Shown here one piece after another: positions 1,282 to 62,680 of a DNA stretch of 64,000 nucleotides. The translations under genes and the position numbers were made by a program. Below the pieces are notes generated by a model that did no database searches, was not told the DNA's origin, and worked only from the letters and a program-made list of their open reading frames with translations. The stretch lies in the NCBI GenBank assembly GCA_018268955.1, contig JAFDVO010000041.1, positions 218 through 64,217 on the forward strand. Reading direction: 5' to 3'. Position 1 is the stretch's first letter, and each line of letters starts with the position of its first letter. This DNA comes from Acidobacteriota bacterium. GTDB lineage: Bacteria > Acidobacteriota > Vicinamibacteria > Vicinamibacterales > CAVVIG01.

Positions 1282-2481
1282 ATGCGCGCACGTCTTGCCC
1301 TGGTCATTACCCTTTGCGCTACCGCGCTGCTCGACGCCCAGTCGCCCCGGCAGTTCGTCACGACCGGGGGGAACCCGAACCTGCCGTTCAGCACGGCGGT
1401 GAAGGCTGGCGGCTTCATCTACGTGGCTGGTGCGATTGGCGACGGAACCACGCCGCTTGCCAGGGGTGACGTCCGGGCGCAGACGCGGCAGACGCTCGAC
1501 GGCATCCAGCGCGTCCTGAAGGAAGCCGGGTCAAGCCTGTCGCGCGCGGCCAGCGTGACGATTTACCTGCGCAACGCCAGCGACGCTGCGGCAATGAACG
1601 AGGTCTACGCCACGTACTTCCCCTCGGCCCCACCGGCCCGCACCACCGTCGTCGTCACCCAGCCGCTCGCGAGCGCTGACGGGTTGGTCGAGATTTCCAT
1701 GATCGCGATCCCGGACGGCGCCGAGCGCACGGTGATCCATCCCGACGGCTGGGCGAAGGTGCCCAGCCCATACAGCTACGGAATCAAGAGCGGTAACACG
1801 CTGTTCCTCTCAGGGCTGGTCAGCCGGAACGTCACCACCAACGCCAACGTGCCTGGTGACATCACCGCCCAGACGAAGTTCGTGCTCGACAATGCCGGCG
1901 CAATCCTGAAGCAGGCCGGGATGGCCTATAGCGACGTCGTGTCGTCGCGCGTCTACCTGGCAGACGACGCGACGTTCCAGGCCATGAATGCCGCATATCG
2001 CCCGTACTTCGCCGACACACCGCCCGCGCGGCTGACCGTCAAGGCGGGCCTGCCAAGCGCGGATTACGCGATCGAGCTGCAGATGGTGGCGGTGAAAGGC
2101 GACGCGCGCTCGGTCGCGACGACCCCGAACGCAGACGGCACTCCGGGGCGTGCGAACCCGAATCTCAGTTCCGCGGTACGCGTGGGCAACACGCTGTACG
2201 TCTCCGGCATCACCGGCAACACACCGCAGAACCGTGGCGACGCGAAGGCGCAGACCGCCGAGGTCCTCGCGCGAACTGGCCGAACGCTGCAGGCGGCGGG
2301 CTACTCCTGGAGCGACGTGGTCGACACCACCGTCTTCATGGCCGACATGACGAAGTTCGGCGACATGAACGAAGTGTACCGCCCGACATTCGGCCGGAGC
2401 TTCCCCGCACGCGCGACCGTCGGCCTTCCGCCGGTCGGCGGCGACACGCTCGTGGAGATGATGTTCGTCGCGGTGAAGTAG
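1282..2481 (+). CDS. Secreted protein with three tandem RidA (YjgF/UK114) domains
   Basis: RidA proteins hydrolyse reactive enamine/imine intermediates released by PLP enzymes; related Rid subfamilies have other or unknown roles. This 399-residue protein has a signal-peptide-like start (MRARLALVITLCATALLDAQS) and then three RidA repeats at about 25-145, 150-272 and 283-399. Each repeat has the GN/GFxYVAG strand near its start and ends in a PAR-containing motif. The arginines at 120, 250 and 377 match the conserved substrate-carboxylate-binding Arg of RidA, so all three sites look intact. Single RidA proteins trimerise; here one chain could supply a whole trimer. The ATG has GAGGAG at 1271-1276 and a TAGAGT -10 candidate at 1247-1252. 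Export is inferred from the leader only. Confidence 0.88.
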   Translation: MRARLALVITLCATALLDAQSPRQFVTTGGNPNLPFSTAVKAGGFIYVAGAIGDGTTPLARGDVRAQTRQTLDGIQRVLKEAGSSLSRAASVTIYLRNASDAAAMNEVYATYFPSAPPARTTVVVTQPLASADGLVEISMIAIPDGAERTVIHPDGWAKVPSPYSYGIKSGNTLFLSGLVSRNVTTNANVPGDITAQTKFVLDNAGAILKQAGMAYSDVVSSRVYLADDATFQAMNAAYRPYFADTPPARLTVKAGLPSADYAIELQMVAVKGDARSVATTPNADGTPGRANPNLSSAVRVGNTLYVSGITGNTPQNRGDAKAQTAEVLARTGRTLQAAGYSWSDVVDTTVFMADMTKFGDMNEVYRPTFGRSFPARATVGLPPVGGDTLVEMMFVAVK

Positions 2482-2623: not shown

Positions 2624-3766
2624 TCACCGGCTCTCGACCGGCACCCACCGCTGCGGAAACTCAGGGCCGACGTATTCCGCGCGCGGACGAATCAGCCGGT
2701 TGTTCGAGAACTGCTCGAGCACGTGCGCGGTCCAGCCGGAAATGCGGCTGACCGCGAAAATCGGCGTAAATAGGTCGGTGGCGATCCCGAGTGCGTGGTA
2801 CGTGGAGGCGGAATAGAAGTCCACGTTCGGGTTCAGCTTCTTCTCGCCCTTCACGAGCGCCTCGATCCGCTGCGACATCTCGTACCAGATCGGCATCCCC
2901 GCTCTCGCACAGAGGTCCTTCGACATCTGGCGGAGGTGCGTCGCACGTGGATCCTCCGTGTGGTACACGCGATGGCCGAAGCCCGGGATCTTCTCCTTCC
3001 GCGCGAGCTTCGCCCGAACCACTTCTTCCGCTTTCTCGACCGGCACATCCTTGCCGATCTCGAGCAGCATCTTCATCACTTCCGCGTTCGCGCCGCCATG
3101 CAGCGGCCCTTTCAGCGCGCCAATCCCTCCAACGACGGCGGAGTAGATGTCGGAGAGGGTTGCCGCAATCACGCGAGCGGCAAAGGTGGAGGCGTTGAGC
3201 TCGTGATCGGCGTGGAGGATCAGCGCCACGTCGAACGCACGGGTCGCCAACGCACTCGGCCGCTCACCGGTGAGCATGTACAGGAAGTTCGCGGCGTGCC
3301 CGAGCACCGGGTCTGGCGCAATCGGCCCGCTGCCGGCGTTGACCCGGCCCATCGTCGCCACGAGCGAGCTGATCTGCGACGTCAGGCGGACCGCCTTGCG
3401 GTAGTTCGCCTGCGGCGTGCTGTTCGACGCGTCCGGGTCGTAGTGCGCGAGGATCGACGTGAGGGTGCGCAGGGTGTCCATGCTGTCGCCGGGCGGCAGC
3501 ATGCGCATTGCGCGGATCACGCCTTCCGGCAACGCTCGTGACGAGACGAGCTGCGATTGCAGATCGCCGAGTTCCGCACGGGTGGGCAACCGCCGATGCC
3601 ACAGCAGGAAGCAGACCTCCTCGAAGGTCGCGTGACGCGCGAGTTCGTGGATGTCGTACCCGCAGTACGAAAGAACCCCACGATCGCCATCGATGAAGCA
3701 GATGGCTGAGGAGGTTGCGACGGTATCTTCCAGACCGGCTTTCGGCTTCGCGTCGGCTGTGCTCAT
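2624..3766 (-). CDS. gltA: Citrate synthase
   Basis: Condenses acetyl-CoA and oxaloacetate to citrate in the TCA cycle. At 380 residues it is of the short type shared by Bacillus-like citrate synthases and 2-methylcitrate synthases; sequence alone does not exclude propionyl-CoA activity. Catalytic residues are visible: His223 in PLHGGAN, His265 in GFGHRVYHTEDPRA and Asp316 in NVDFYSA. HADHELNAS (His185/His188) is the usual oxaloacetate-side motif. The ATG is preceded by a TATGAT -10 candidate only 8 nt upstream and no Shine-Dalgarno, so the message may be nearly leaderless. It is divergent from dprE1 and convergent with the RidA gene. Confidence 0.95.
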   Translation of the reverse strand: MSTADAKPKAGLEDTVATSSAICFIDGDRGVLSYCGYDIHELARHATFEEVCFLLWHRRLPTRAELGDLQSQLVSSRALPEGVIRAMRMLPPGDSMDTLRTLTSILAHYDPDASNSTPQANYRKAVRLTSQISSLVATMGRVNAGSGPIAPDPVLGHAANFLYMLTGERPSALATRAFDVALILHADHELNASTFAARVIAATLSDIYSAVVGGIGALKGPLHGGANAEVMKMLLEIGKDVPVEKAEEVVRAKLARKEKIPGFGHRVYHTEDPRATHLRQMSKDLCARAGMPIWYEMSQRIEALVKGEKKLNPNVDFYSASTYHALGIATDLFTPIFAVSRISGWTAHVLEQFSNNRLIRPRAEYVGPEFPQRWVPVESR

Positions 3767-56639: not shown

Positions 56640-56998
56640 GGGAGGCCTAGAGGGCTGGGAACGGCGGGAAGGCCGGGAAGGCCAGGAGAGCTGGCGGGGC
56701 TACCGGTTCAAACCTCCCCCCTCCGCACGCGTTGTGAACGCGCCTTCGGCGCTGTGCTCCGGCGGGCAAGCCGGCCCCTGTCCTCCGTCGTCCGTCTTCC
56801 GTCCGAGTCCCGAGCCCCGAGTCCCCAGTCCCGAGTCGCCAACCTCCGCCCTCGTCCCCGTATTCAGCCATCCGTCACAGACGGTTTCTTGGAGCCGTGA
56901 CGAACGACAGGGACGAGCGTTCGTCCCAGTGACGAGTAGCGGGTTGCACCTTCGATACTCGGCGCATGCACGACTTTCCCCGACGGAGGATGTCAGAC
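56640..56998. repeat. Intergenic region with 9-bp and 7-bp repeat arrays
   Basis: A 359-nt gap without a gene. At 56666-56692 there are two exact GGGAAGGCC units and a related AGGAGAGCT. At 56805-56840 there are about five GAGTCCC-like heptamers, partly of 6 or 8 bp. A small GC hairpin, CCGGCGGGCAAGCCGG, lies near 56759-56774. GGAGG at 56985-56989 is the Shine-Dalgarno for the next gene. No clear promoter was found. Confidence 0.8.
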
Positions 56999-61148: not shown

Positions 61149-61255
61149 GCGGCCACGGAGCACACGAAGCCACACTGTCTCCGACGACGGCGGCTCCGTG
61201 ACCTTCGCACACGGCGCGATTCGCGATCAGCACTCCGCAATGAGCGATCAGCACT

Positions 61256-61310
61256 CGCGATTAGCGATTAGCATTTAGCGATTAGCGTTTAGCATTTACC
61301 GATTAGCGTT
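61256..61310. repeat. Heptamer tandem array AGCGATT
   Basis: Eight consecutive 7-bp units (CGCGATT, AGCGATT, AGCATTT, AGCGATT, AGCGTTT, AGCATTT, ACCGATT, AGCGTT) run up to the stop codon of the M20 gene. Diverged copies extend left to about 61215. It is the same unit as at 2542-2604, and again lies between convergent genes. Confidence 0.92.
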
Positions 61311-62680
61311 CACCTGATCTTCCCGATCTCCTCATACAGGATCGCCGACGAGATGATGCCGCTCTGGAAGTTGCCGCAGTCGAGCTTCTCGTTGGGTGCG
61401 TGCGCGTTCTCGTCGGGCAGGCCCACACCGAACAGCACCGAGGGGAGCCCGAGTTCCTCCTGGAACGTGGCAACGACCGGGATCGAGCCCCCTTCGCGCG
61501 TGAAGACCGGCGCCCGGCCGAAGCCCTGCTCGATTGCGCGGCCCGCCGCCTGGATGTACTTGTTGTCGAAGGAGGCCATCCACGGCTTGCCGCCGTGCAT
61601 GCGGGTGACCTTCACTTCCACCGTCTTCGGCGCGATCTTCGCGAGGTAGTCCTCGAACAGCTTCGCGATCTTGTCCGGGTCCTGGTTGGGCACCAGCCGC
61701 ATGCTGACCTTTGCCATGGCGACGGCCGGCAGCACCGTCTTCGCGCCTTCACCGGTGAACCCGGAGAGCAGCCCGTTCACCTCGAAGGTCGGGCGGGCCC
61801 ACGTCCGCTCCAGCGTCGTGTAGCCCGGCTCCCCGTGCACCTTGGGGATGCCGAAGTCCTTGCGGTACTGCTTCTCGTTGAACGGCAGCGTGGCCCACGC
61901 CTTCCGCTCCTCGTCCTGCAACGGCACCACATCGTCATAGAAACCGGCAATCTTGATGTTGCCGCTGCGGTCCTTGCACTGCGCGAGCATCTGCGCGAGC
62001 ACCATGGCCGGATTGGCCACGGCGCCGCCGAAGACACCTGAGTGGAGATCGGTGCTGCTGCCGCGCAGGTCGATCTGGAAGTACACCAGGCCGCGGAGTC
62101 CGTAGCAGATCGAGGGCACGCCGCGCGCGAACATGGCCGAGTCCGAGATGACCACGACATCCGCCGCGAGCTTCTCCCGGTTGGCCTTCACGAAGTTGTC
62201 GAGGTTGACGCTGCCGACCTCCTCTTCGCCCTCGAGGATGATCTTGATGTTCACCGGCAGGCGGCCGTTCTGCTTGATGTGCGCCTCGATCGCCTTGAGG
62301 TGCATGAAGACCTGCCCCTTGTCGTCCGCGGCGCCGCGCGCGTAGATCTCGCCGTCGCGCACCGTCGCCTCGAACGGCGGCGTCGTCCAGAGGTCCAGCG
62401 GGTCGACCGGCTGCACGTCGTAGTGGCCGTAGAAGAGGATCGTCGGCGCGCCCTCTGCACCCTTCCATTCGCCGTAGACGACCGGGTTGCCAGGCGTCTC
62501 TATCAGCTCGACCCCCTGGAGCCCCACCCGCCGCATCTCGTCCGCGCACCACTCGGCGCACCGGCGCACATCGGGTGCATGCTCGGGCAGCGCGCTGATG
62601 CTCGGGATCGCGAGCAGCGCCTTCAGTTCGTCGAGGTAGCGTTCGCGATTGACGTTGATGAAGTCGATGACGTTGTTCAT
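61310..62680 (-). CDS. M20-family metallodipeptidase
   Basis: A 456-residue zinc peptidase of the M20A dipeptidase group (CNDP/DapE-like). Metal-site motifs: FYGHYDVQPVD (His and Asp), ARGAADDKGQ (bridging Asp), EGEEEVGS (general-base Glu pair) and the late His in DENAHAPNEKL. A dimerisation/lid domain occupies about 200-330. ATG 62680 is chosen (MNNVIDFI); the longer open frame upstream is not family-like. No signal peptide, so cytoplasmic. It may work on small peptides taken up or made during turnover. The downstream side carries the AGCGATT array. Confidence 0.93.
   Translation of the reverse strand: MNNVIDFINVNRERYLDELKALLAIPSISALPEHAPDVRRCAEWCADEMRRVGLQGVELIETPGNPVVYGEWKGAEGAPTILFYGHYDVQPVDPLDLWTTPPFEATVRDGEIYARGAADDKGQVFMHLKAIEAHIKQNGRLPVNIKIILEGEEEVGSVNLDNFVKANREKLAADVVVISDSAMFARGVPSICYGLRGLVYFQIDLRGSSTDLHSGVFGGAVANPAMVLAQMLAQCKDRSGNIKIAGFYDDVVPLQDEERKAWATLPFNEKQYRKDFGIPKVHGEPGYTTLERTWARPTFEVNGLLSGFTGEGAKTVLPAVAMAKVSMRLVPNQDPDKIAKLFEDYLAKIAPKTVEVKVTRMHGGKPWMASFDNKYIQAAGRAIEQGFGRAPVFTREGGSIPVVATFQEELGLPSVLFGVGLPDENAHAPNEKLDCGNFQSGIISSAILYEEIGKIR

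Follow-up and report, generated by a model that had tools for sequence, protein, structure and literature searches.

RidA, a small enzyme, usually acts within the cell to remove reactive imines. RidA, TdcF and YjgF are single-domain proteins assembled as homotrimers, and the roles of Arg105 and Glu120 have been described for TdcF (PMC1884159); the arginine binds the carboxylate, its loss nearly abolishes imine hydrolysis, and replacement of the tyrosine in S. enterica RidA is reported to have little effect (PMC4433059). Proteins with three RidA domains in tandem, exemplified by EF_0115 of Enterococcus faecalis, were named 3x-RidA by Niehaus et al. in 2015 and presumed to be covalent trimers (PMC4433059). 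RidA is on record outside the cytosol as well, together with L-amino acid oxidase in the Chlamydomonas periplasm (LAO1/LAO2(RidA)) and, as a proposal, in Gluconacetobacter, where the lao-cccA-ridA cluster places a RidA gene with an oxidase predicted to be Tat-exported (PMC5053998, PMC10805672). Concatenation of RidA trimers is, in addition, a proposed route to the cyanuric acid hydrolases and perhaps the chorismatases: the AtzD paper argues for YjgF concatenation in connection with the Toblerone fold of the former (PMC3758960), and a preprint presents the FBXO22 FIST domain as pseudo-three-fold, with chorismatases and cyanuric acid hydrolases similar to FIST in fold and possibly derived from YjgF monomers (PMC11185555).

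The window considered here, a stretch of 64,000 nucleotides from an Acidobacteriota contig (JAFDVO010000041.1; source genome assembly of 4.77 Mb in 58 contigs), encodes a 3x-RidA protein with a predicted export signal and three unequal domains (Table 1). Linked triples and exported RidA are each known; the combination of apparent export with three uneven domains sets this conserved triple apart as a version of its own, and new are the ancient divergence of the domains, the restriction of the tyrosine usually to the middle domain and the haem domain carried by two relatives. The original prediction had presented the tandem triple as a departure from the RidA norm, and on this point it was preceded by the 2015 naming of 3x-RidA with the same covalent-trimer idea. 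The three tandem domains are common to EF_0115 and the window protein, whereas export signal, domain asymmetry and Acidobacteriota members, the first of them predicted and the others seen here, do not figure in the passages on 3x-RidA of the 2015 paper, the main text of which contains no mention of periplasm, signal peptide, acidobacteria or secretion. Abstracts and passages of the literature yielded no description of the exported triple family or its asymmetry, nor of the haem-domain fusion, the latter without a query by name.

Table 1. Features of the 3x-RidA gene and its surroundings in the window
Feature	Residues	Position	Strand	Remarks
3x-RidA gene	399 aa	1282..2481	+	ORF, ATG start, stop included; PF01042, TIGR00004, homologues
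Predicted Sec signal peptide	1-19	1282..1338	+	cleavage predicted at LDA/QS
RidA domain 1	20-146 (borders approximate)	1339..1719	+	Arg120, Glu137; Phe36 at Tyr17 place
Arg120 codon	120	1639..1641	+	Arg in 76/76 family proteins
RidA domain 2	147-275	1720..2106	+	Tyr164, Gly178, Asn204, Asn236, Arg250, Glu265; most canonical of the three
Conserved linker	R149-P154-W157			opens domain 2
Arg250 codon	250	2029..2031	+	Arg in 76/76 family proteins
RidA domain 3	276-399	2107..2478	+	Arg377, Glu392; Leu295 at Tyr17 place, Arg331 at Asn56 place
Arg377 codon	377	2410..2412	+	Arg in 71/76 family proteins
Citrate synthase		2624..3766	-	convergent neighbour, outside the system

Catalytic residues and origin of the three domains

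The window protein exceeds both profile cut-offs relevant to the Rid family and belongs to it by profile score. PF01042 (Ribonuc_L-PSP, Pfam) matches it three times over (E 1.7e-75; 251.2 bits, cut-off 27.3) and is the only Pfam family above threshold, a Kelch match remaining below it; TIGR00004 (NCBIfam, Rid family detoxifying hydrolase) gives 226.6 bits for the whole protein against a cut-off of 106.25, under which the single domains, at 76.5-82.6 bits each, fall. The three domains that make the protein a 3x-RidA share 37-42% pairwise identity over 111-113 aa. The claim of three tandem RidA domains is thus borne out, and so is that of arginines 120, 250 and 377 within P-A-R motifs: all three, read from the DNA, occupy the place of RidA Arg105, so that the protein retains the active-site arginine that characterizes RidA/Rid1-Rid3.

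Conservation was assessed over 76 family proteins (the window's included), obtained from 112 long-match loci out of 118 matched by dropping the six short-match loci and keeping one copy of any sequences identical over their last 360 aa, while near-duplicates were retained; alignment columns were matched to TdcF residues by eye. Next to the arginines (Table 1), the glutamates are kept almost throughout (Glu137 in 72/76, Glu265 in 75/76, Glu392 in 74/76). The Arg, Glu, Gly and Asn positions are common to the window protein and the RidA/TdcF/YjgF homotrimers, which differ in being single-domain: here three domains lie in one exported chain, and Tyr17 has its counterpart usually in domain 2 only. 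At that place, domain 2 has Tyr in 71/76 proteins, domain 1 has Phe in 58 and Tyr in 8, and domain 3 has Leu in 64 and Tyr in 4. The Asn56 place is mixed in domain 1 (Asn in 39/76), Asn in 66 proteins in domain 2 and Arg in 62 in domain 3. Other positions are conserved in a domain-specific manner, namely P154 and W157 of the linker (76/76 each), R149 (72/76) and R182 (71/76). R377 is absent at its column in five proteins (L034, L083, L088, L115, L116) and position 137 is Gln in four (L088, L114, L115, L116), the lineage of L088, L115 and L116, to which the haem-fused members belong, having lost both Arg377 and Glu137.

Chance or an assembly artefact was ruled out as the origin of the gene by homologues across the order and the phylum and by purifying selection: in an alignment of 29 rows, homologues match the window protein along its full length with 44-75% identity (besides the window protein, 28 of the 30 loci found are included, as L006 is the window itself and L015 was left out), and dN is 0.17 against a dS of 0.96 in comparison with a same-genus homologue. 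For a tree, the 81 domains of 27 triples, hand-picked among the 76, were combined with 22 single-domain RidAs. One branch sets apart every domain-2 row (support 88/97) and another every domain-3 row (95/88), while 24 of the 27 domain-1 rows form a group (94/90) with the other three nearby; built on 131 columns, the tree is poorly supported in its deep branches, and the bootstrap had yet to converge. The pattern is consistent with a single ancient triplication after which each domain evolved on its own, and recent copying appears disfavoured.

Predicted export and fold

The original prediction of export stands as a prediction. By eye, the N-terminus MRARLALVITLCATALLDAQ reads as a Sec signal, with cleavage, also placed by eye, after MRARLALVITLCATALLDA and before Q, and a rule that looks for a hydrophobic window after a positive charge passes the window protein along with 64 others in the family (65/76 in all). 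The same rule passes 7/22 single-domain RidAs from eight genomes, 0/10 among L001 and L124-L132, and 128/670 flanking ORFs taken at the called start only; by rule and controls, then, a cleavable signal peptide is predicted. Leaders ending in A-Q or A-x-A-like sequences are found in many family members, and the signal peptide changes faster, 7/20 residues being kept relative to L007. Residues 14-19 constitute the sole stretch of three or more with pLDDT below 50 in the structure model. Of the 11/76 proteins that fail the rule, two (L088, L116) have a hydrophobic leader ahead of an extra domain, five (L020, L033, L034, L083, L117) are signal-like by eye, two (L028, L081) are doubtful, one (L071) is truncated and one (L085) lacks a signal. 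No export signal was seen in the triples of L085 and the 371-aa frame of L149 (G029), and cytosolic triples therefore probably exist, as far as leader sequences can tell. In L033 and L035 the leader contains a lipobox-like LIAC (by eye), and the 3x-RidA of that lineage is probably a lipoprotein.

The AlphaFold2 (AF2) model of the window protein is compact (mean pLDDT 91.5, pTM 0.89), so that the domains are placed confidently relative to each other; independent domains, which the structure prediction called for in the original proposal might have revealed, are not seen in this single predicted fold. The best seven Foldseek matches to the model are chorismatases (350-363 columns), and VIA-align superposes these at Z 27 (27.2) over 282-284 residues with an rmsd of 2.9-3.1, the alignment covering model residues 42-398; single RidA chains match one domain at Z ~18-21. 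With the chorismatases FkbO/Hyg5 (4bps, 5a3k, 5ag3) the window protein thus has the whole-chain fold in common, and it differs from them in its predicted export and a sequence identity of 14-16%. A second model, of the divergent relative L088 (pLDDT 80.9, pTM 0.75, the haem part poorly modelled), matches over the whole triple to chorismatases (Z 27.8), to the FBXO22 FIST domain (Z 15.6-16.1) and to several proteins that are cyanuric acid hydrolases or related to them (Z 11.2-11.8, rmsd ~4.7-5.1); no cyanuric acid hydrolase occurs among the 50 matches listed for the window model. Given the confident AF2 model, the whole-chain chorismatase match and, for L088, the matches to FIST and cyanuric acid hydrolases, the proposal of an intramolecular trimer is well supported at the level of prediction, and the window protein would conform to the covalently linked trimer presumed for 3x-RidA.

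In L088 (1622-3199, + strand) and L116 (1060-2640, + strand), a Haem_bd domain (PF14376; 128.1 and 149.4 bits, respectively, cut-off 27) lies between leader and triple and has one CxxCH motif, CYNCH/CYDCH by eye. Haem of the c type is attached outside the cytosol, and export of these two haem-triples is therefore very likely, judged from their sequences.

Gene neighbours and proposed function

The window gene lies between lepA (minus strand, named by eye from a homologue) and citrate synthase, separated from their frames by 115 and 148 nt; from this lone position, it is probably transcribed alone. A consensus scan for promoters and terminators gave no match. Short tandem repeats occur in the window at 2490-2608, 56653-56687 and 61216-61312, as GGCCGGGAA arrays and as AT-richer AGCGATT/GCGATTA heptamer arrays, and one array lies directly behind the 3x-RidA gene. 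No gene neighbour is common to the whole family, the commonest occurring in 24/57 loci. SpoIID-domain, SET, esterase-like, radical-SAM, amidase, YjbQ, FdhD and 2-thiouracil desulfurase/DUF1722 genes recur (SET, esterase-like and radical-SAM named by eye), neighbours differ from lineage to lineage, and several of the recurring ones look like local synteny.

Threonine dehydratase is a classic source of the RidA substrate. At three loci, the 3x-RidA gene overlaps the next gene by ATGA (L071 ~1090, L073 ~3299, L081 ~11137), which in L073 is a threonine ammonia-lyase (TIGR01127, 387.7 against 378.75 bits) and in L071 and L081 is threonine dehydratase-like by similarity. The linkage is limited to these loci and export is doubtful in part of their lineage, where L073 passes the signal rule with a weak-looking signal, L081 does not pass it and L071 is truncated; it therefore supports the chemistry more than the place. 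The original view that the usual enamine substrates are not to be expected in the periplasm does not hold up, since the periplasmic RidA/L-amino acid oxidase on record (PMC5053998, PMC10805672) makes imine substrates outside the cytosol unsurprising, and the window's own genome encodes three FAD amine oxidases (PF01593) with Tat-like twin-arginine leaders (by eye). As in the reading proposed below, RidA in the Chlamydomonas LAO1/LAO2(RidA) lies outside the cytosol beside an amino-acid oxidase; there and in Gluconacetobacter, however, RidA is described as a subunit or gene of its own within a cluster for the oxidase, whereas the window gene is without a linked oxidase. An exported oxidase as the universal partner was ruled out by the lack of co-occurrence across the order: 3x-RidA is present in 14/22 genomes with the oxidase and 45/84 without (Fisher p 0.47), and in 14/26 and 45/80, respectively, when a second oxidase served as query (p 1.0). 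On another contig of the window's own genome (C54, locus L175, 2993-9862), genes for a DsrE-like protein and a single-domain RidA, both exported, lie on one strand, diverging from a TonB-receptor-like gene that is closely followed by one for an FAD amine oxidase whose leader is Tat-like; names are by eye except PF01042 and PF01593.

The reading we favour, and hold to be somewhat probable, is that of an exported, covalently linked RidA pseudo-trimer acting as imine/enamine hydrolase in the periplasm. Once exported by Sec and freed of residues 1-19, the chain would close its three domains round a central barrel, with each inter-domain cleft holding one arginine as carboxylate anchor and one glutamate; imines or enamines of amino acids would be hydrolysed to the keto acids with release of ammonia, and their likeliest source would be exported amine or amino-acid oxidases. 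Linkage of the domains would fix which residues meet in each cleft and keep the trimer intact outside the cell. The clefts would be unequal, one probably being the main site, because domain 2 alone usually keeps the canonical Tyr and Asn56, and the other two weaker or used with other substrates. The RidA reaction is argued for by the Arg and Glu kept in the clefts; domain content, signals, haem fusion, fold, the threonine dehydratase overlap, and the oxidases with their precedent count in the same direction. Counting against it are the missing constant neighbour, the oxidase results across the order, the lack of Tyr in two of three domains, the 11/76 signal-rule failures and the cytosolic-looking triples of L085 and L149.

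The inequality of the clefts and the domain-specific conservation (R149, P154, W157, R182) would also be expected of an enzyme repurposed for new chemistry on another envelope carboxylate or amide, its linked clefts having diverged as in chorismatase and cyanuric acid hydrolase. The resemblance of the whole chain to chorismatases in fold (Z 27 over 283 aa, rmsd 2.9) and the loss of Arg377 and Glu137 in the lineage of L088, L115 and L116 point the same way, as does one group of relatives in which a same-strand amidase gene lies upstream (14 loci, some from the same genome; PF01425 in L078, where the leader is Tat-like by eye) and YjbQ downstream. We nevertheless consider repurposing rather unlikely: the imine-site Arg and Glu are kept in nearly all 76 proteins, the NCBIfam chorismatase model TIGR04444 gives 17.8 bits where 325 are required, and Pfam finds no cyclic amide hydrolase or cyanuric acid hydrolase family in the window protein. 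In AtzD, the active site is described in the central barrel, and that of RidA-type trimers in the outer clefts (PMC3758960).

Conservation of the cleft Arg and Glu would be left unexplained if the exported triple were a chlorine-activated periplasmic chaperone, and no known stress gene is among the identified neighbours, most neighbours being unnamed. Such a role appears quite improbable, even though RidA turns into a holdase in the cytosol on N-chlorination, according to a review (PMC7464077), and a periplasmic copy would meet oxidants first. Still less credible is an N-terminus that stays uncleaved as an anchor or fails in export, leaving the triple to act on cytosolic imines or at the membrane; the signal-less triples of L085 and L149 (G029) speak for it, the A-Q or A-x-A-like leader ends, the LIAC of L033/L035 and the CxxCH haem domain of L088/L116 against it.

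Beyond the periplasmic imine hydrolase favoured here, one may speculate, with small probability, that the exported triple stands, as an extant intermediate, between the symmetric trimers of RidA and concatenated enzymes with a single site (chorismatase, cyanuric acid hydrolase, FIST), its three clefts already specialised and its substrate a periplasmic metabolite new to Rid proteins, coupled in some lineages to electron transfer; the canonical domain 2, the Tyr mostly lost from domains 1 and 3, and the loss of Arg377 and Glu137 in a lineage with haem-fused members are what this idea draws on. Independently of this, a sizeable family that is still clearly RidA-like has become concatenated and retains its catalytic residues even as its domains diverge. 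The concatenation idea becomes testable in this way, for a one-chain triple allows the Arg of a single cleft to be mutated, which is impossible in a homotrimer. A periplasmic role would, in turn, add evidence for imine clearance outside the cytosol, in a phylum little studied for it.

Distribution of the family

The 3x-RidA gene, with its predicted export, belongs to a conserved family. A 29-row profile matches at 1e-50 in 59 of 106 genomes of the order that are at least 90% complete, and in 57 of 100 when contamination is also limited to 5%; across the Acidobacteriota, at least 41 of 396 genomes match, a lower bound given that four first-look candidates were scored per genome. The best match spans fewer than 300 positions in 4/59 and 3/41 of these, respectively. 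Presence is patchy across genomes, and 3x-RidA is therefore an accessory function. A protein search of 60 genomes, own included, returned many full-length matches. A scan of named genomes with one peptide pattern from domain 2, by which relatives without the pattern are missed, gave 59 loci, 56 of the 3x-RidA family and three weak. The contigs are titled Acidobacteria almost throughout, one Vicinamibacterales; the exceptions among the 56 are one Bifidobacterium, one Cyanobacteria and one Woeseiaceae MAG. The Bifidobacterium and Cyanobacteria titles we take to be mislabelled bins, the former because its match coordinates are identical to those of a same-genus genome (G001).

A tblastn search of plasmids matched 1007 records, 117 with one place covering 80% of the query; the 30 matches listed of these 117 span ~330-450 bases, which rules them out as triples, single domains having been hit three times. 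At L145, a RidA domain ends a long ORF, the upstream part of which resembles FG-GAP/VCBS repeats by eye. In a viral structure library, one whole-chain match was obtained, a 387-aa YjgF-family protein of Pandoravirus neocaledonia (A0A2U7UCQ5) that matches the whole model (E 5.3e-15, rmsd 9.5); judged from this structural match, a giant virus may also carry a RidA triple.
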